Source: an uncultured Bacilli bacterium (GTDB lineage Bacteria > Bacillota_I > Bacilli_A > RF39 > UBA660). Taken from it: a stretch of DNA of 38,460 bases. The notes under the pieces are model-generated. The model had not been told where the DNA came from and made no database searches. It saw only the letters and a program-made list of their open reading frames with translations. The DNA lies in assembly GCA_944363735.1 (NCBI GenBank), contig CALVVB010000006.1, positions 1-38,460 on the forward strand. The letters are read 5' to 3'. Below, one piece after another: positions 13,786 through 23,107 of this stretch (positions are counted from its first letter, which is position 1; the number at the start of each line of letters is the position of its first letter). The position numbers and the translations under genes are program-made.

Positions 13786-14646
13786 GTGGGAAGAATGGAT
13801 AGGTATGATAACTCTCATAAACCAGGAGTTAGAAGTAGAACTGAAAAAAATCATGATTTATATACTGATTTAGGTAATTTAGAAAAGTATACTATGCTTA
13901 CAGATGTATCTAAAATAGAAGCAGTTGAACTAGACGCAGCTAAAAAGAACTATCGTACTAGAGAGGGATATCACAGTCTGAAAGATTATGATATAAATAT
14001 AGAAGAAAAGCCTAAAGAAAGAAAGGAATTAGATGAATTTAATTTTTTATATAATAATGAACATAAGACTTATGATATTAATAGAGTATTAGAAGAAGCG
14101 AAAGAGTTAAGAGAAAAAGATAATTTGGAGAGAAAGAGAAAACTTCATAATGAAAAATATAATATATTAGAAAGTAGTGAAGAAGATTTAGAAAAATTTA
14201 AAGAAGAGACTAAATTAAGACATAAACCTATTGAAAATGAAGAGGAATTAGAAGAGTTGATTCATACTATTACTTCTAAAGAATTAAGAGAAGAAATAGA
14301 TAAAAGTGAATCAGATGATAATACTAATACTTTACTTGGGGATTTAATGGCTACAAATGTGAATGAAGAAGTATTAAAGCCAATTGCTACTAAAATAGAA
14401 GATAATAAAGTAGAAGATAATACTAAAAAAATAGATAAAGTTAAAGAAAAGACTATGTCTTTGAAAGATCAGATAGACAAGTCATTTTATACTAAAAGCC
14501 TTGATTTAAGTGAGGAAGACTTTGAAAGTGATGATGAAGTAGTAGTAAAACCATCTAAAATATTAGGATTTTTAAAAGTTATCTTATCATTAATTTTGAT
14601 ATTGGCAGTTGGCTTTGGAGTATATTATGTAATTACTAATTTTTAA
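13786..14646 (+). CDS. Tail-anchored, charged coiled-coil protein, function unknown
   Basis: Not recognised. 286 residues with no signal peptide. The N-terminus is a basic, motif-like segment (MGRMDRYDNSHKPGVRSRTE), then come long Lys/Glu-rich helices likely to form coiled coils (about 90-235), and a single membrane helix (about 262-283) sits at the very C-terminus. The bulk should therefore face the cytoplasm, anchored by its tail. GTG start behind TAGGTGAT. Such a layout fits cell-division or membrane-scaffold proteins, but there is no direct evidence. It is monocistronic between its own -10 and a short hairpin. Confidence 0.7.
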   Translation: MGRMDRYDNSHKPGVRSRTEKNHDLYTDLGNLEKYTMLTDVSKIEAVELDAAKKNYRTREGYHSLKDYDINIEEKPKERKELDEFNFLYNNEHKTYDINRVLEEAKELREKDNLERKRKLHNEKYNILESSEEDLEKFKEETKLRHKPIENEEELEELIHTITSKELREEIDKSESDDNTNTLLGDLMATNVNEEVLKPIATKIEDNKVEDNTKKIDKVKEKTMSLKDQIDKSFYTKSLDLSEEDFESDDEVVVKPSKILGFLKVILSLILILAVGFGVYYVITNF

Positions 14647-14681: not shown

Positions 14682-14751
14682 ATACTTTTATTATCATTAG
14701 TTTTATGATAAACTTGAAATATAAACAACAATATTGATAGGGGGAATAGAA

Positions 14752-15591
14752 ATGAATTTAAACTTTGTTTTAAATGATTATGCTTTGATTTGGAATTTGT
14801 TATTTAATGCCTCTATTTCTTCTAATGTCCAGGAATTTAAACAGAAGTTGTGGAAAAACTATCGTCACAGTTACAATGCTTTATATAAAGAAGAGGAACA
14901 TATTTTAAAAGATCCAAAAAACTATATACCAGATGATGATACTGTTTTTGATATGGTTAAAAATAGTGAAATGTATCAAGAAATAAGAGAAGAAACTGAA
15001 AAATATCGTTTAGAACTTTTACATACTTGGGATACTTTAAAAAAGGAATTAAATAAGAATTTTAAAGAAATATTAAAATTTGATATTAAATTATATCATG
15101 TTTTAGTTGTTGATAAAAAAATTGATATAATTGGTATGACAATACCAAAGAGTAGAAGAGTTAATACTATTACTTGGGGCAATAGAAGTGATAGTGATGA
15201 TTATATACTTGCTATCATCAATATAATTGAACATATTGTTAGAAAAGAGCTTATTAATTATCAAGAGGAGTATAAAGATATAGTAGATGCTATTATAGAA
15301 CTTGCTATTGATAATGAACTTACTTCAAGAATTTTGAAAAAGAGTGTTTATTTGCGAGGAGATAATTCCCTAAAATTTTTAAAAAGGCAATTATATCCTT
15401 ACTTTCTTATGTATCTAGGATATTCTAAAGAAGAAATTTTAAATAGAATGTTAGCTGATAAGATTGTTTTTGAACTTGATAAATATACTTTTGAAAGACA
15501 ACTTGCAACAGTAGATTTAAAAGCATTTATTGATTTTTGTATTAAAAATCAACGTCATATTTTAAAGATAAATGAACTAGAAATAATTTAA
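14752..15591 (+). CDS. Protein of unknown function upstream of polC
   Basis: Not recognised. 279 residues, soluble, rich in Lys/Glu/Ile, mostly helical, with several aromatic-rich stretches (for example YALIWNLLFN near the start). No catalytic motif is apparent. I chose the ATG at 14752 over the in-frame TTG at 14734 because the SD-like AGGGGG lies at 14739-14744, between the two. The same AGGGGGAATA leader precedes three other genes of unknown or divergent function (20286, 21074, 21461). The gene ends 24 nt before polC, so the two may be co-transcribed. Confidence 0.7.
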   Translation: MNLNFVLNDYALIWNLLFNASISSNVQEFKQKLWKNYRHSYNALYKEEEHILKDPKNYIPDDDTVFDMVKNSEMYQEIREETEKYRLELLHTWDTLKKELNKNFKEILKFDIKLYHVLVVDKKIDIIGMTIPKSRRVNTITWGNRSDSDDYILAIINIIEHIVRKELINYQEEYKDIVDAIIELAIDNELTSRILKKSVYLRGDNSLKFLKRQLYPYFLMYLGYSKEEILNRMLADKIVFELDKYTFERQLATVDLKAFIDFCIKNQRHILKINELEII

Positions 15592-15615: not shown

Positions 15616-18600
15616 ATGGACAGCAAGTTAAATTTGTTTTTAGAAAAAATTAATCTAAATAAAGATTATTTTGATTTTTTTAAAAATTCTACTTTAGATA
15701 AAATAGTTGTTAATAAAAATAGAAAAAGTTTTTTAGTTAAAATAACTATAGATAAGTATTTGCCTAAAGATATATTATCTAACTTAATAGAAAATAAGCA
15801 CTTATTTTCTCCTGATTTAACATATAATTTTACTGTTAGAAATCCTGATAATAAAATACTATTAGATTATTATCCTTATTTTTTAGATATCTTAAAAGAA
15901 AGAGATAAAATAAAATTAATTGATGTTTATAAAGATTCTTTGGTTTATGAAGATGATACATTGAGATTTATCGCCTATAATAAAAAAGAAGAAGATAGAT
16001 TAAAAGAAATAACTAATGATATAAATAACTTCTATCATAATATAGGATTTAATGACTATATACCAATTATTTTGAGAGAAGATAACATAATTGAAGAAAT
16101 AAGTAATGAACTTTCTAATGTTGTTATTCCTGAGCCTATTAAGACGGATGTTATTAAAGAAGAATCTAAACGTTATAATAACAGTGGTACTCCTAGAAGA
16201 AGAAAAAGTACTGATGAAGGATGTATTTTAGGTAAAACTATTGATTGTGAATCTATTAAGATGAGTTTATTATTAGGTGAAGATAATGATGTAACTGTAG
16301 AAGGATATATTTTTGGTACAGATTATTTTGAGTCTAATAAAACTAACTTTAAGATTATTACTTTAAAAATAACAGATGAAACAGATAGTATTGCCTGTAA
16401 AGTGTTTTGTAATGAAGATGAAGAGTATGTTAGACTTTGTAAAACTTTAAAAGTAGGAACATGGCTTAAGATTAGAGGATATACAAAAATAGATTCTTTT
16501 GCTAAAGATGAGTTAGTACTTAATGCTAGGGATATTATGCCTGTAGAACATGTTGAAGAAGAAATTACTGATGATGCTAAAGAAAAAAGAGTAGAACTCC
16601 ATGCTCATACGATGATGAGTCAAATGGATGGAGTAGCAGATGAAGTAAAACTAGTTAAACAGGCGATGAAGTGGGGACACAAAGCTATTGCAATAACAGA
16701 TCATAATGGTGTTCAAGCTTTCCCCCATGTTTACAATCTAGTAAGAGATTATAATAAAGGTAAAGAAGAAAAAGATCAATTTAAAGCAATATATGGAACA
16801 GAACTTGTAATGGTAGATGATAATGTAGATATAGTTATTAGACCTAATGATGGTAAATTACTAGATCAGACTTATGTTGTTTTTGACTTTGAAACTACAG
16901 GATTTAATGCCGGTGGTGCTGACTCTATTATTGAAATTGGTGCAGTTAAGATGAAAGGTGGAGAAATCCTTGAGCGTTATGATGAGTTAATTAATCCAGG
17001 AAGACCTTTACCTGCTAAAATAACAGAGATAACTAATATAACAGACTTAATGTTAGAAGATAAAGACAATGAAGAGAATGCTGTTAAAAGATTTATTGAA
17101 TGGTTTGGTGACTTACCTATGGTTGCCCATAATGCTAAGTTCGATGTTTCTTTCTTAGAGATGGCTTATAAAAAATATAATCTAGGTGAGTTTAAGAATC
17201 CTGTTATCGATACCCTAGAATTATCAAGAACCCTAGATAATAACTATGCTCGTCATGGTCTATCTGCCTTAGTTAAAAGATATAATGTTCCATGGGATGA
17301 AGAGAGTCATCATAGAGGAGATTATGATGCTGAAGGTACTTCTTTAGTCCTATACAAAATGTTAGAGAAACTAGATAGTAGAAATATAGAGACAATGGAA
17401 CAACTTTCAAATATAGTAGATTCTAAAGAGATGTATAAATATGGTAATACTAATCATATTAATATTCTTGCTTTAAATAAAAAAGGACTAAAGAACTTAT
17501 TTAAAATAGTATCTTTTGCCAATACTACATATCTTCATAAAACGCCAAGAATACCAAGAAGTATTATTAATGAATATAGAGATGGTTTACTTATTGGTAG
17601 TGGTTGTTATGAGTCTGAAGTATTTAAACAAGCTAGTAGCAAGAGTGAAGAGGAACTATCTAATATTATTAGATTTTATGATTATGTTGAAGTACAGCCG
17701 CCAGAGTGTTATTCTCATTTAGTAGAAACAGGTGACTTTGCAAATGAGGGTGAAGTAATTAGTAATATTAATAAGATTATTAATACAACTATTGATGCTG
17801 GTAAATTGATTGTTGCAACAGGAGATGTTCATCACCTAACAAGAGAAGATAAAATATATAGAGAAATCATTGTTAATCAAAAAGTACCAGGAGGAGGACG
17901 TCATCCTCTAGCAAGAGGTGGTATTAAAAACATTCCATCAAATCACTTCAGGACAACAACAGAGATGCTAGAAGATTTCTCATTCTTAGATGAAGAAACA
18001 AGAAAACTAATAGTTATAGATAATCCTAAAAAAATCGCTGATATGACAGAAATTATAGAAGTTATTATTGAAACAGGAGGAATACCTTTTTCTCCTAAAA
18101 TTGATAGTAGTGTTGAAACTGTTACAGAGTTAGTCTTTACAAAAGCTAGTGATATGTATGGAGATCCTTTACCATATAATATTGAAGAACGGATTAGTAC
18201 AGAGTTATATGGGGATGGTGTTTATAAAGCTGTAGAAGCTAAATTAAAAAGAGAAGAACCTAATCTAAGTGAAGATGAGTTTAAGAAGAAGTTATTCGCT
18301 AACTTACATAATACTCTTTTAAAAGGCTTTGATGAAGTAAAGAAAGTAATAAAAGAAAATCTTAAAATAACTGACCCTGATATAACCGATGAAGACTTAG
18401 AGAAAACTCTTAAAAAGAATTTAGGTGGTGTCATCGGTGGTGGTTTTGATGTTATTTATCTAATCGCTCAAAAGTTAGTTAAACATTCTAATGATGATGG
18501 TTATATCGTTGGTTCAAGGGGTTCTGTTGGTTCATCTTTTGTGGCTACAATGATGGGGATAACAGAAGTAAATCCTCTTCCTGCTCATTATTTATGTCGT

Positions 18601-20226
18601 AATAAAGAATGTAAGTATTCAGAGTTTAGTAATGAAGATGGCGAAGCTTATGGGAAAGACTATCCATCAGGCTATGACTTGCCAGATAAAAATTGTCCTA
18701 AATGTGGAAAACCTTTAGGTAAAGAGGGACAAGATATGCCATTTGCAACTTTCCTAGGTTTCAATGCTGATAAAGTTCCTGATATCGATCTTAACTTCTC
18801 TGGAGAATATCAATGGAAAGCTCATGAATATACGAAAGTACTATTTGGTGTTGACAATGTATATAGAGCAGGTACCATTGGTACTGTCGCTGAAAAAACG
18901 GCTTATGGTTATGTTAGGGGTTACTTTGAAGAACATGGTATTATAGGAAAAAGAAGTACAGAAATTGAAAGACTTGCAAAAGGATGTACTGGTGTAAAAA
19001 GAACGACTGGACAACATCCTGGTGGTATTGTTGTTATACCAGGTTATATGGATGTCTTTGATTTTACACCGTTCCAGTATCCTGCTGATGATAATACGTC
19101 ACTTTGGAGAACAACTCACTTTGATTACCATGCTATTGATCAAGATGTTTTAAAACTTGACATACTAGGTCACGATGATCCTACCGTTTTAAGGATGTTA
19201 CAAGACCTATCAGGTATTGATATTACAACACTACCAATGGACGATAAAAAAATATTTTCTATTCTATCAAGTCCAGAAGCTTTAGGGGTAAAAGAAGAAG
19301 ATATTCTTTGTCCAACTGGAACCCTTGGATTACCTGAACTTGGAACAAGATTTGTTATTAATATGTTAGTTGAAACTAAACCTTCAACTTTTGCTGAACT
19401 AGTTAAAATATCAGGATTATCGCACGGTACTGATGTTTGGGCAGGTAATGCTAGTGAATTAATTAGAAATAATATTGTTCCTTTTAAAGATGTTATTGGT
19501 TGTCGTGATGATATTATGGTTAACTTAATGAATTGGGGAATGAAACCTATTAGAGCCTTTAAAATAATGGAACATGTTAGAAAAGGTAAAGCTAGTAAAG
19601 ACCCTGAAACATGGAAGGGCATGGTTGAAGAGATGAAAGCTGCTAACGTTCCAGAATGGTATATAGAGTCATGTCATAAAATAAAATACATGTTCCCAAA
19701 AGCCCATGCTTGTGCCTATGTTATGAGTGCTATTAGAATCGCTTGGTTTAAAGTCTATAAACCATTATTCTACTATGCAGCCTTCTTCTCAATTAGAGTA
19801 GATGATTATGATATAGAAACTATGATAAAAGGCTATAATGCTATTAAAACAAGATATGAAGACTTAATGGCTAAAGGCTTTGAAGTTACTAATAAAGAGT
19901 CTAATATCATAGATTCCCTTCATGTTGCCCTAGAAGCGACGGCACGTGGAATTAAATTTGCACCAATTTCTTTAGAGAAAAGTGATGCGACAAGGTTTGT
20001 TGTTGATACTGAACATGAAAATACTTTAATACCACCATTTAAAACTATCGATGGTCTAGGTTTAACAGTTGCAAAGACTATAGTGGAAGCAAGAGAAAAC
20101 GGACCATTCCTAAGCAAAGAAGATTTACAAAAACGTGGTAAAGTATCAAAGACCTTAACAGATAAAATGACTGAGATGGGAATACTTAATGAATTACCTG
20201 ATTCAAATCAGTTAAGCTTGTTTTAA
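15616..20226 (+). CDS. polC: DNA polymerase III alpha subunit PolC (Gram-positive type)
   Basis: The replicative DNA polymerase with built-in proofreading. 1536 residues, slightly longer than Bacillus PolC. Domain order: an N-terminal domain, an OB fold (about 215-310), a PHP domain (HAHTMMSQMDG near 330) split by an inserted DEDD 3'-5' exonuclease (VVFDFETTGFNAGG near 424), then the polymerase core. A zinc finger is seen at about 994-1030 (CRNKEC... CPKC). The catalytic Asp pair is in PDIDLNFSG (D1056, D1058). Helix-hairpin-helix elements follow, and the C-terminus ends LSLF, a clamp-binding-like tail. SD AAGGAG. It is on the same strand as most genes. Confidence 0.98.
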   Translation: MDSKLNLFLEKINLNKDYFDFFKNSTLDKIVVNKNRKSFLVKITIDKYLPKDILSNLIENKHLFSPDLTYNFTVRNPDNKILLDYYPYFLDILKERDKIKLIDVYKDSLVYEDDTLRFIAYNKKEEDRLKEITNDINNFYHNIGFNDYIPIILREDNIIEEISNELSNVVIPEPIKTDVIKEESKRYNNSGTPRRRKSTDEGCILGKTIDCESIKMSLLLGEDNDVTVEGYIFGTDYFESNKTNFKIITLKITDETDSIACKVFCNEDEEYVRLCKTLKVGTWLKIRGYTKIDSFAKDELVLNARDIMPVEHVEEEITDDAKEKRVELHAHTMMSQMDGVADEVKLVKQAMKWGHKAIAITDHNGVQAFPHVYNLVRDYNKGKEEKDQFKAIYGTELVMVDDNVDIVIRPNDGKLLDQTYVVFDFETTGFNAGGADSIIEIGAVKMKGGEILERYDELINPGRPLPAKITEITNITDLMLEDKDNEENAVKRFIEWFGDLPMVAHNAKFDVSFLEMAYKKYNLGEFKNPVIDTLELSRTLDNNYARHGLSALVKRYNVPWDEESHHRGDYDAEGTSLVLYKMLEKLDSRNIETMEQLSNIVDSKEMYKYGNTNHINILALNKKGLKNLFKIVSFANTTYLHKTPRIPRSIINEYRDGLLIGSGCYESEVFKQASSKSEEELSNIIRFYDYVEVQPPECYSHLVETGDFANEGEVISNINKIINTTIDAGKLIVATGDVHHLTREDKIYREIIVNQKVPGGGRHPLARGGIKNIPSNHFRTTTEMLEDFSFLDEETRKLIVIDNPKKIADMTEIIEVIIETGGIPFSPKIDSSVETVTELVFTKASDMYGDPLPYNIEERISTELYGDGVYKAVEAKLKREEPNLSEDEFKKKLFANLHNTLLKGFDEVKKVIKENLKITDPDITDEDLEKTLKKNLGGVIGGGFDVIYLIAQKLVKHSNDDGYIVGSRGSVGSSFVATMMGITEVNPLPAHYLCRNKECKYSEFSNEDGEAYGKDYPSGYDLPDKNCPKCGKPLGKEGQDMPFATFLGFNADKVPDIDLNFSGEYQWKAHEYTKVLFGVDNVYRAGTIGTVAEKTAYGYVRGYFEEHGIIGKRSTEIERLAKGCTGVKRTTGQHPGGIVVIPGYMDVFDFTPFQYPADDNTSLWRTTHFDYHAIDQDVLKLDILGHDDPTVLRMLQDLSGIDITTLPMDDKKIFSILSSPEALGVKEEDILCPTGTLGLPELGTRFVINMLVETKPSTFAELVKISGLSHGTDVWAGNASELIRNNIVPFKDVIGCRDDIMVNLMNWGMKPIRAFKIMEHVRKGKASKDPETWKGMVEEMKAANVPEWYIESCHKIKYMFPKAHACAYVMSAIRIAWFKVYKPLFYYAAFFSIRVDDYDIETMIKGYNAIKTRYEDLMAKGFEVTNKESNIIDSLHVALEATARGIKFAPISLEKSDATRFVVDTEHENTLIPPFKTIDGLGLTVAKTIVEARENGPFLSKEDLQKRGKVSKTLTDKMTEMGILNELPDSNQLSLF

Positions 20227-20255
20227 TTGACAAAGTAAGAAAGAAGTGCTATAAT
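20227..20255 (+). promoter_or_regulatory. Consensus promoter, copy 1 of a duplicated leader
   Basis: Perfect TTGACA (20227-20232), 17-bp spacer and perfect TATAAT (20250-20255) preceded by TGC. It starts 1 bp after the polC stop. The spacer and the 5' leader down to the SD are nearly identical to 21013-21072. Confidence 0.9.
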
Positions 20256-20288
20256 ACAGCTACATTCAATGAAGGGGGAATAATAATG
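20227..20288 (+). repeat. Promoter-leader repeat, copy 1
   Basis: About 55 bp running from the -35 through GCTACATTCAATG and AGGGGGAATAA to just before the start codon of the 20286 gene. It differs from copy 2 (21013-21076) at about five to six positions plus a small change in spacing before the ATG. Confidence 0.85.
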
Positions 20289-20933
20289 GAAAATTTAGAA
20301 TTAAATGAACAAAAATATAATAATGATATGATCACATTATCAAGAATTGGTTTTAGACCAATTTACACTAGTAAAGAGGATGCTTTCACTATTATGTATA
20401 GCGGTTTGACATCTTCAGTATGTTCTGTAGAACTTAATGGAGGTAACGTATCTCTTGATTTAGCTAGTCCATATCTTGAAACAAATAAGAAGACTGATAA
20501 TATTATGGATGTATTTACAGCTATTAAAGATATGGAACAAGCACCTGTTAGAGACCTAACAGTTGAAGATTTACCACTTTTATCTAGTAAAGAAGAAGAA
20601 CAAATAATGCCTGATAAAGATATTGCTACATATTTTAACTTTAAGGAAAATTATGATAGTTTATTAGGTATGGGTGATGAATACTGGACAAAAAGATTAT
20701 TAAGAGAAGCTGAAAATGAATTCGGACATGGTGCTATATTAGAAGGTGCCTTTGAAAGTCCTTCAATGATGGTAGAAGAATATGAGAGTTATGCTTCACA
20801 AAATAAGAAGGAAAAAGAAAGCCTACAAAAAATTAATAGATTAGGACAAATGCCATATGGAGTACAAACTTTAGTAGCTAATTCATTACAAGAAGATAAT
20901 GAAGTGACTGATGAAATTTCAAGAAGAAAATAA
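20286..20933 (+). CDS. Protein of unknown function, strongly promoted
   Basis: Not recognised. 215 residues, soluble, acidic, no signal peptide or membrane helix. The N-terminal half (about 1-80) looks alpha/beta (ITLSRIGFRPIYTSKEDAF, then a VELNGGNVSLDL strand pair). The C-terminal half is helical, with a charged tail ending EISRRK. It has a consensus promoter, an AGGGGGAATAA leader and a strong terminator, so it is a single-gene, probably highly expressed unit. Because the next transcription unit uses a copy of the same promoter and leader, the genes are likely to work under the same control. Confidence 0.75.
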   Translation: MENLELNEQKYNNDMITLSRIGFRPIYTSKEDAFTIMYSGLTSSVCSVELNGGNVSLDLASPYLETNKKTDNIMDVFTAIKDMEQAPVRDLTVEDLPLLSSKEEEQIMPDKDIATYFNFKENYDSLLGMGDEYWTKRLLREAENEFGHGAILEGAFESPSMMVEEYESYASQNKKEKESLQKINRLGQMPYGVQTLVANSLQEDNEVTDEISRRK

Positions 20934-20964
20934 ATCAAGTTCTCTATATTAATCAAAAATAATG

Positions 20965-21001
20965 ATGATATATGTAAAATCAATACATATATCATTTTTG
21001 T
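20965..21001 (+). terminator. Strong intrinsic terminator
   Basis: A 12-bp perfect stem (20965-20976 with 20984-20995), 7-nt loop, then TTTTGTT. It separates the 20286 gene from promoter copy 2. Confidence 0.85.
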
Positions 21002-21012
21002 TAGTATAAAAT

Positions 21013-21041
21013 TTGACAAAGTAACAAAAAAGTGCTATAAT
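21013..21041 (+). promoter_or_regulatory. Consensus promoter, copy 2 of the duplicated leader
   Basis: TTGACA (21013-21018), 17-bp spacer, TATAAT (21036-21041) preceded by TGC; near-identical to the promoter at 20227. Confidence 0.9.
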
Positions 21042-21076
21042 ATGGCTACATTCAATGGAGGGGGAATAAAAGAATG
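21013..21076 (+). repeat. Promoter-leader repeat, copy 2
   Basis: Second copy of the 55-bp promoter plus leader, with the same GGCTACATTCAATG-type transcript start region and a GGAGGGGGAATAA SD region. Confidence 0.85.
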
Positions 21077-21424
21077 GAAAAAGAAATTAGAACAGTGTTA
21101 GAAGGAAGTTATGCTGAATACGAAAAACGTACTGAAGAAAACAGAAAACTTATGGAGAACTATGCACGTGGTGTAGAAGAACTAAAAAAGAAAGGGTTGG
21201 AAGCTTGCGTAACAGAAAAAGTTTTTGAATCACAAGAATCTAAAGAAGAGTATGCCAATTATTTAATGAACATTCTGGATGGAAGTGCTCATGCATTAGC
21301 TGAAACACTTGATCCAGAAGGTTACGCAAACGGAGTATATGACGCTTTTGGCAATTTTCATTATAAAACTAAAGATGGTGGCTCAAATATGATAACACCA
21401 GAAGGTGCCATTTTAGAAAGATAG
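21074..21424 (+). CDS. Small protein of unknown function, strongly promoted
   Basis: Not recognised. 116 residues, soluble, acidic. The first about 75 residues are a charged helical region (RKLMENYARGVEELKKKG). The C-terminal part has a Gly/Asn-rich, strand-like segment (ANGVYDAFGNFHYKTKDGG). No membrane segment. It sits behind promoter copy 2, 37 nt before the laccase-domain gene, which lacks its own promoter but repeats the GGGGGAATAA SD region, so the two are an operon. Confidence 0.75.
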   Translation: MEKEIRTVLEGSYAEYEKRTEENRKLMENYARGVEELKKKGLEACVTEKVFESQESKEEYANYLMNILDGSAHALAETLDPEGYANGVYDAFGNFHYKTKDGGSNMITPEGAILER

Positions 21425-21460
21425 AAAATAATAATATAACTAATTAAGGGGGAATAAAGA

Positions 21461-22315
21461 ATGGAAAATTTAAATTTTAGAGAGAATGTTTTGAGAATAG
21501 GACATTATGATATTTATAAAAAAGGTTCTGCTAGTGTTAAAAATTTACGAATTTTAAATACTGGTAATAAATATGGTATTATGACTACTAAAGCTTGTTT
21601 TTATGAAGATGGAATGTCTTTTGATGATAGAAAGGCAATCTTTTTAGAACGTCGCAAAAAGGCTGCAGCAGATAATAAATATGCTTTTGACCCATATAAA
21701 TTTTATATGCCTATTCAAAATGGTGAAGGTAAAGCAGTAGAACTTACAAGAGAAATGGTAGAAGCCTATGAAGATGGTTGGGACTTAGATATTAAAGCTG
21801 ACATTTTAATTACAACTGATAAAATCCCAGGAGTAGTAGCTGGTTTCCCAGTTGCTGATTGTCCACTTCTTATAGCAAGTGATTTAAAAAATGGTATTAC
21901 TGCAACTGCTCATTGCGGTGCTGCAATGATTAATAATTATTTACCAATTAAAACTGTTGAAGCTCTACAAAGCATGTATAATAGTAAAAAAGAAGATATT
22001 TACATTTATATAGGCGCTCATGCAGGAAAAGACTGGTCTTATGATAGATATCCTGACTTTGCTACTGAAAAATTTTGGGAACAAACTGAAGCAGTTAAGC
22101 AAATAAAAGAAGATGATTTTAGAATTAATATGGATAGTGCATTACTTTATCAACTTTCTCCAGAGGAATATGAAACTTATATTATAAATACTGATAATAC
22201 TAGAACTAATCCAAATTATTATTCTAATAGTATTTATAATCATGGTAAAGGACCAGAAGATAAAAATGGTATGCATTTTGAAGGAGCATATTATCAAAAA
22301 ACAAAAAGACTGTAA
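21461..22315 (+). CDS. Divergent laccase-domain (YfiH/YlmD-like) protein
   Basis: 284 residues. The core (about 110-260) follows the pattern of the PF02578 family, which includes zinc-dependent adenosine/purine nucleoside phosphorylases of the FAMIN/YlmD type: ADILITTDKIPGVVAGFPVA, then DCPLL (C134), then ITATAHCGA (H151), then IGAHAG. Two of the three usual metal ligands, Cys and second His, are kept. The first His (QxHG motif) corresponds to QNGE here, giving N87. HAGW has become HCGA, and the late CT...F-S-R motif is NTDNTRTNPNYYSNS. Activity may be altered or lost. It is second in an operon with the 21074 gene and ends at a terminator. Family call moderate. Confidence 0.6.
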   Translation: MENLNFRENVLRIGHYDIYKKGSASVKNLRILNTGNKYGIMTTKACFYEDGMSFDDRKAIFLERRKKAAADNKYAFDPYKFYMPIQNGEGKAVELTREMVEAYEDGWDLDIKADILITTDKIPGVVAGFPVADCPLLIASDLKNGITATAHCGAAMINNYLPIKTVEALQSMYNSKKEDIYIYIGAHAGKDWSYDRYPDFATEKFWEQTEAVKQIKEDDFRINMDSALLYQLSPEEYETYIINTDNTRTNPNYYSNSIYNHGKGPEDKNGMHFEGAYYQKTKRL

Positions 22316-22350
22316 AAAAGAGTTAAAAATAAAAGACTCTTTTTTCTTTT
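22314..22350 (+). terminator. Intrinsic terminator
   Basis: AAAAAAGAGT (22314-22323) pairs with ACTCTTTTTT (22336-22345) across a 12-nt loop, with a T-rich tail. The first bases overlap the stop codon region of the laccase-domain gene. Confidence 0.8.
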
Positions 22351-22355
22351 TGTGA

Positions 22356-22378: not shown

Positions 22379-23107
22379 ATGGAAAAGATTAACCTAGATA
22401 AAGTAAATTACATACAATATGGTAGTGCTAAAGGTAAAGATATTATTTTACTGCATGGTTGGGGACAAAATATTGAAATGATGGAACCACTTGGTAATCC
22501 GCTATCTTGTAAATATCATATTACAATATTAGATTTTCCTGGTTATGGAAAAAGTGATGAACCTGATGAAGTTTGGACAGTATCTGATTATGCCGAACTA
22601 GTTCATGAGTTAGTGAAAAAGTTAAAGATTAAGAAACCTACATTAATAGGACACTCTTTTGGAGGTAGAGTTGCTATAGTTTATGCTTCAAAGTATGAAG
22701 TAGATAGAGTAGTATTATTTGGAGCTCCTTGTGTTAGAACTAAAAAAGGATTAACTCTAAAAGAGAAAATGTTAAAGAAAGCAAAAACATTACCAGGTAT
22801 GGGTAAAATTGCAGAGATTGCTAAAAACTATATTGGTTCTGAAGATTATAAAAGTGCTACACCTAAAATGCGAGAAATCTTAGTTAAAACAGTTAATGAA
22901 GATTTATCTGATTATGCTAAAAAGATAACTGTTCCAACTCTTCTAGTATGGGGAGAGATGGATGAAGCAGCTCCACTTGAAGAAGCGAAACTCTTAGAAA
23001 ATTTACTTCAAGATGGTGCCTTAATTGTTCTACCAGGAACACATTATGCCTATCTTGAGAATTTGAGTAGGATTATAAATATTATAAATAATTTTATGGA
23101 GGGATAA
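22379..23107 (+). CDS. Alpha/beta hydrolase
   Basis: A 242-residue cytoplasmic serine hydrolase fold. The oxyanion region is LLHGWGQN (24-31), the nucleophile elbow GHSFGG (S93), the acid VWGEMDEAAP (D195) and the His PGTHYAYLEN (H222), so the triad is complete. A small cap lies at about 120-175. Its stop is 1 nt before the start of the murF-like gene, so it is first in an operon with murF and ddl. That context suggests a role tied to cell-wall precursors, but the substrate is unknown; esterase or thioesterase activity on an unrelated compound is equally possible. Confidence 0.9.
   Translation: MEKINLDKVNYIQYGSAKGKDIILLHGWGQNIEMMEPLGNPLSCKYHITILDFPGYGKSDEPDEVWTVSDYAELVHELVKKLKIKKPTLIGHSFGGRVAIVYASKYEVDRVVLFGAPCVRTKKGLTLKEKMLKKAKTLPGMGKIAEIAKNYIGSEDYKSATPKMREILVKTVNEDLSDYAKKITVPTLLVWGEMDEAAPLEEAKLLENLLQDGALIVLPGTHYAYLENLSRIINIINNFMEG

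Follow-up and report, generated by a model that had tools for sequence, protein, structure and literature searches.

A duplicated promoter leader behind polC as the probable edge of a gene-exchange slot in uncultured Bacilli

We analysed a stretch of 38,460 nucleotides (the window) from the genome of an uncultured Bacilli bacterium, in which two near-identical leaders, each bearing a promoter, follow the DNA polymerase gene polC. The leader is probably a site-bound expression cassette that also forms the recombination edge of a gene-exchange slot. Different and mostly unknown genes stand behind the same promoter in sister species, and the leader is thus better understood as the fixed edge of a slot than as a signal for one gene set. 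The argument starts from what is directly observed: the anatomy of the leader, the behaviour of the slot across species, the positions of its junctions and the concerted change of the two leader copies in one relative, G021.

Anatomy of the duplicated leader

The features of the locus are as follows (SD, Shine-Dalgarno sequence).

15616–20226, plus strand: polC, DNA polymerase III alpha of the PolC type, the fixed upstream flank (Pfam PHP, RNase_T and DNA_pol3_alpha)
20227–20283, plus strand: leader copy a, with TTGACA at 20227–20232, TATAAT at 20250–20255, GCTACATTCAATG at 20259–20271 and the SD GGGGGAATAA ending at 20283
20286–20933, plus strand: P1, 215 aa, the slot-1 gene, of a genus-restricted family (from its distribution; AlphaFold2 model)
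20958–21002, plus strand: AT-rich hairpin and T run, probable terminator of the P1 unit (fold z = -5.4; 19-nt inverted repeat)
21013–21069, plus strand: leader copy b, with TTGACA at 21013–21018, TATAAT at 21036–21041, GCTACATTCAATG at 21045–21057 and the SD GGGGGAATAA ending at 21069
21074–21424, plus strand: P2, a 116-aa orphan between leader b and LAC1 (no relatives; codon statistics; insertion relative to genomes G004 and G021)
21442–21465, plus strand: partial leader copy, SD and start region AATTAAGGGGGAATAAAGAATGG, a direct repeat flanking P2
21461–22315, plus strand: LAC1, a divergent laccase-domain protein of 284 aa (PF02578, YfiH/PgeF fold; Pfam and profile match)
22322–22354, plus strand: terminator GAGTTAAAAATAAAAGACTCTTTTTTCTTTTTG, end of the P2–LAC1 unit (from its sequence; the same element lies between cargo genes of relatives)
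22379–23107, plus strand: alpha/beta-hydrolase (esterase) gene, the fixed downstream flank (Pfam Abhydrolase_1)

A sequence-only reading of this DNA had described near-identical duplicated units of 55 bp with a perfect TTGACA-17-TATAAT promoter, an extended -10 and an SD region. The duplication and the promoter are upheld, the units measuring 57 bp: the copies are direct repeats (20227–20283 and 21013–21069) that are 91% identical at a spacing of 786, and each has a sigma-70 site that scores 12 of 12 (TTGACA, a spacer of 17 and TG before TATAAT) and a start region common to both. In a promoter scan of the region they were the top two of 21 promoter-like sites. Copy a begins one base past the polC stop codon (TAA, 20224–20226). 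The same reading had noted that the SD region is repeated ahead of the laccase-domain gene, and we confirm a partial third copy there, at 21442–21465, consisting of the SD and start.

In the 1.25-Mb genome as a whole, the element GCTACATTCAATG has just two occurrences, both at the polC locus. When a 70-bp leader query was searched against the genome, only copies a and b matched (E = 5e-31 and 3e-17) and all else had E > 0.1; the leader repeat is therefore far beyond chance.

The leader as a possible regulator

The leader could instead act as an operator or RNA switch, placing P1 and the P2–LAC1 operon under joint control as one functional system; we consider this improbable. Consistent with regulation, the similarity extends beyond the core promoter into the spacer and start region, leader copies inside one genome are 91–100% alike, and even diverged copies have ACATT at the start site. 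The RNA points the other way. The leader transcript, which likely starts at about 20261 or 21047, was unfolded when taken to 30–35 nt inside the genes (z = +1.44 and +0.26, respectively), and an Rfam search gave no credible match, its sole match being a sub-threshold miRNA within LAC1. On these two results we rejected a riboswitch or attenuator, and the leader reads as an open initiation region with a 5' UTR of about 27 nt and a strong SD. No regulon-type element was found before other loci of the genome, which holds just the two copies at polC, and we rejected a regulon as well. Against co-regulation of one system there is also the distribution of the genes, of which P2 is unique to the window genome and which are not kept together. 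The earlier suggestion of a regulatory leader is thus not supported, given the unfolded RNA, the lack of a credible Rfam match and the lack of a regulon. The leader does not stand before many housekeeping genes, an outcome that the sequence-only reading had named as refuting; its copies in the genome are only those at the polC locus.

Across the genus, the polC-type leader is nearly confined to the polC locus. An off-site copy was observed in one genome (G008:C60:13623-14501; L172/L056), where it precedes an orphan 280-aa protein between mutM and pyk. This protein has an RNA-polymerase-alpha-CTD-like domain (PF03118, E = 5e-9), and upstream of it are a small hydrophobic peptide ORF, MSKKDFLVSTLLFIIILLIVLLFVV, and inverted repeats, an arrangement that resembles a type I toxin-antitoxin locus.

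The strong hairpin with its T run at 20958–21002, which a G+C-based terminator scan did not call, indicates that P1 is a separate transcription unit and that P2 and LAC1 form a second. A stereotyped terminator, GAGT...GACTCTTTTTTCTTTTTG, is found 3' of cargo genes, at 22322–22354 and at many loci in the genus, and also 3' of mfd. We considered whether these elements are parts of a cassette and rejected this, because the similar terminators behind mfd make them more likely the usual terminator of the genus.

Gene turnover between polC and the esterase gene

The polC flank is kept in 32 of 35 genus genomes and the esterase flank in 29 of the loci examined. Between them, the interval ranges from 125 bp (in G005) to 4.2 kb and is filled by recurring families that are reshuffled from genome to genome: P1, 'MNS', LAC2, 'CHD', LAC1 and 'MRRV', besides a number of singletons. 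The most frequent arrangement is leader, P1 or MNS, leader, LAC2, CHD, LAC1, MRRV. The leader consensus, for which the sequence-only reading had proposed a search of relatives, was found directly after the polC stop at 15 of 31 loci, a few of these copies being much decayed, and the first genes behind it differ by species, comprising P1, MNS, a 224-aa orphan and laccase-domain proteins. On a tree of flanking genes for 30 genomes the slot-1 gene requires 19 changes, about as many as shuffled labels, which average 20.1; the flank sequences may themselves recombine, so that this tree is just a guide. We found no integrase or transposase among P1, P2, LAC1 and the main cargo families, a search that left aside the rare genes of G028 and G020.

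The leader is not always kept: in three genomes (G011, G013 and G001) its drift has reached that of synonymous sites in polC. The genomes are draft metagenome assemblies in which repeats invite assembly errors; independent assemblies agree. Directly upstream of polC, the window has two more proteins without a Pfam match (14734–15591 and 13786–14646), the first of them with a similar SD, AGGGGGAATAGAAATG.

Junctions fall on the leader or on shared starts

Comparison of relatives locates the breakpoints. The loci of G009 and G019 align through leader a, then have nothing in common across MNS and P1, and can be aligned again from base 1 of leader b (3.8 kb, 95.8%). G030 differs from G021 exactly by the lack of P1 and one leader. 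G004 is without LAC2 and CHD, and the join lies inside a start sequence, ATGGAAAATTTA, that is common to LAC1 and LAC2. In the window, P2 is inserted relative to G004 and G021 and is flanked by two SD/start copies of ~27 bp. In G012, and in decaying form in G015 and G006, TTGACA is joined straight to the last LAC2 codons (DIKVYSYGSARRR), a joint that we read as a deletion scar.

Shared sequence continues into the coding regions. P1, the orphan of G024, LAC1 and LAC2, some of which are unrelated, have 10–12 of the first 12 nt after the ATG in common, whereas the maximum among 325 pairs of ordinary window genes was 9 of 12. P2 is an exception: it agrees with the other families at only 6–8 of these 12 positions. 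Selection for efficient initiation could account for part of this sharing of early codons.

In G021, leaders a and b are 100% identical over the compared columns and both carry the variant TTCGATG, which is missing from the leaders of the window genome (G000), G004 and G019. Copy a of G021 also resembles the b copies found elsewhere more closely than it does the a copies. Such a pattern is what gene conversion leaves, and the G021 pair would reflect it. The sequence-only reading was right that the similarity exceeds what a promoter needs; local duplication, gene conversion and the swapping of genes at the leader account for the excess better than a regulatory leader would.

These observations also bear on a plainer account, in which the promoter was copied once with P1 by tandem duplication and selection on the promoter and on initiation keeps the copies alike, with no role in exchange. 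It would explain why the invariant leader columns are chiefly the -35, the -10, the start region and the SD, and AT-rich early codons help initiation. We nevertheless think it unlikely. The junctions of swap, loss and insertion lie on the leader or start, both G021 copies have identical private variants, unrelated genes have their first 12 coding bases in common, and the same design is found at mfd.

A second slot behind mfd

The gene mfd is followed by a different leader, TTTACA...TATAATATGTGGCAAATGAAGGGAGAGAGGTTTT (the mfd slot of the window genome is G000:C13:23446-24003, loci L135 and L175; the mfd loci of the genus are L142-L171). The genes behind it again vary by species, being P1 relatives or members of one of two unrelated families, of ~160 aa (VRENTFDVPAYKFF) and ~140 aa (VSNV...), and some genomes have none. 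In G004, G012 and G019 the units stand in tandem and the 3' end of mfd is duplicated, the duplicated piece measuring about 270–365 bp at ~90% identity. In the window genome, the terminal sequences of contigs C28 and C13 overlap inside the 3' end of mfd, as expected were the repeat present. P1 relatives have the polC leader when they are at polC and the mfd leader when they are at mfd. Thus, the leader belongs to the site and not to the genes.

Duplication of the mfd 3' end beside extra units is also seen with elements that integrate at gene ends, and the boundary at the polC stop is sharp. Both would suit site-specific mobile cassettes, with the leader as an integrase attachment site and single genes inserted behind polC and mfd, in the manner of an integron cassette or a gene-end att site. 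We regard this as very unlikely: the cargo families tested have no recombinase or transposase, the repeats precede the genes and are unfolded, and the polC and mfd leaders differ in sequence. The size and divergence of the mfd piece (270–365 bp, ~90%) and the drifting 57-bp leaders are more like homologous recombination.

The genes in the slot

Neither P1 nor P2 matches a known family in Pfam or in further profile searches, in agreement with the earlier claim that the strong duplicated promoter and leader would stand ahead of proteins without a known family. The in-frame codon statistics of P1, P2 and the laccase-domain gene resemble those of other window genes. P1 is 97% identical in G004, G019 and G021 and about 55% identical in G034 and G024. 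Distant paralogues elsewhere in the genus aside, these are just 5 further genus members, and none of the 394 other genomes sampled from the class gave a match. AlphaFold2 predicts an alpha-beta5-alpha domain for residues 1–100 (pLDDT 89.8); the helical tail is poorly predicted in the full model, and the fold gives no function. The N-terminal domain model matched nothing in the PDB with E below 0.5. Weak fold matches of the same residues (model me200ad2b932b; E = 0.006–0.08, TM about 0.5) were to small uncharacterised phage proteins, and several of the phages (My1, PR1, phiR2-01 and AAS21) are ones that we take to be T5-like.

P2 looks like a real gene by its codon statistics, despite its occurrence in a single genome; it has no relatives in any other genome searched, and its only matches were to an engineered protein and by chance. 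We rejected a defence system, on the lack of a PADLOC match, and a phage origin, PHROGs giving nothing above chance and viral contigs no relatives. Of the undescribed system that had been proposed here, the locus is indeed undescribed in the literature as far as we found. The three genes do not form a system that stays together, the second outcome that the sequence-only reading had named as refuting: P2 is in no other genome, P1 is in 5 other genus members and the laccase-domain gene is mostly found without P1.

LAC1 passes the gathering cutoff of Pfam PF02578 (Cu-oxidase_4; E = 4e-11, 43.1 bits, cutoff 22.9), falls far below that of the PgeF equivalog TIGR00726 (29.4 bits, cutoff 141.15) and has a profile match to the YfiH structure 6dzd. 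In YfiH, the catalytic triad is Asp89, Cys107 and His124, and UDP-MurNAc is contacted by His71, Trp127 and Arg128 (PMC8844914). Cys134 and His151 of LAC1 are invariant in the family alignment and align to the YfiH motifs; Asp114 is also invariant, its equivalence being placed by motif with a differing loop length. The IQNGEG region of LAC1 is without His, and AHCGAAM replaces the AHAGWRG of YfiH. LAC1 shares the fold and keeps the Cys, the His and likely the Asp of the triad, whereas it is without the YfiH substrate residues, and we rejected a canonical PgeF on both score and residues. Because the residues that hold UDP-MurNAc are missing, the substrate of LAC1 is likely to differ from that of YfiH/PgeF.

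Other cargo is represented in relatives. LAC2 (L107:1265-2143) shares the laccase fold with LAC1 (hhalign probability 98). Other residues stand at its catalytic Cys and His positions, and it is likely a pseudo-enzyme or has a new function. CHD (L107:2215-3135 and relatives; 306 aa), absent from the polC locus of the window genome, has a conserved C (NGLCELGQAL), H (PFNHVFG) and D (YLIDSTYRQFF), a pattern like that of a Cys-His-Asp hydrolase or transglutaminase-like fold; it had no above-chance match in Pfam or the PDB. In G001 (L116:524-1288), a P1-type N-terminus of 39 aa is fused to a truncated LAC2, and this fusion apparently arose by deletion between adjoining slot genes.

Proposed mechanism

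We propose that the cassette comprises a strong and probably constitutive promoter, an open 5' UTR of ~27 nt, a strong SD, and the start codon with about four further codons. Fixed directly after the polC stop, it would mark the edges of a slot of gene turnover, which genes would enter and leave by recombination within 60–75 bp of shared sequence and also at the shared starts. Any gene landing in the slot would be expressed at once, by the cassette of the site. In the window, P1 would occupy slot 1 and leader b would drive LAC1 and the later-inserted P2. We infer an exchange by ordinary homologous or short-homology recombination, an active and constitutive promoter, and a useful cargo.

A bolder version, to which we give only a small chance, is that the leader is a dedicated and selectively kept recombination-and-expression module throughout this genus of genome-reduced gut Bacilli. 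Promoter-first docks behind polC, mfd and perhaps other genes would then allow small genes, for example for anti-phage, competition or host-interaction functions, to be switched at a high rate through the leader copies, even within a population.

Comparison with known systems

Hotspots of gene turnover without mobile genetic elements are common, and the expression of incoming genes and the positions of breakpoints are rarely visible in them. Here, breakpoint and expression signal can be read together, at two independent core-gene sites in one genus. Together with the shared start, the leader also offers a means of gathering the fast-evolving orphan genes that uncultured gut Bacilli carry, and of asking what they are selected for.

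In integron arrays, a fixed promoter at the entry point expresses interchangeable promoterless genes. The polC slot also has a fixed promoter and interchangeable genes, whereas its repeats precede the genes and include the promoter, and the cargo tested includes no integrase. Nor is there a folded attC site 3' of the genes; the repeat is 5' and unfolded, and the common 3' elements are intrinsic terminators. In horizontal regulatory transfer, or regulatory switching, it is the regulatory regions that vary upstream of a given gene. The likeness is that regulatory sequence and downstream gene recombine independently; the difference is that at polC the regulatory region stays put and the genes are exchanged.

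Our literature search for a named system of such a kind found only papers on hotspots and regulatory switching (including PMC5890482 and PMC9944727). For horizontal-transfer hotspots without mobile elements, housekeeping homologous recombination has been proposed (Oliveira et al. 2017, PMC5635113). The polC slot resembles these hotspots (PMC5635113) in its rapid gene turnover between two fixed core genes with no recognisable mobile element. It differs in that their homology lies in the flanking core genes, whereas here the observed junctions lie on a short promoter/SD/start cassette that is repeated within the slot and would also supply expression. The locus is best read within the known frame of a hotspot free of mobile elements; what is new is a breakpoint region formed by a short promoter/SD/start cassette, by which expression would be secured as well.
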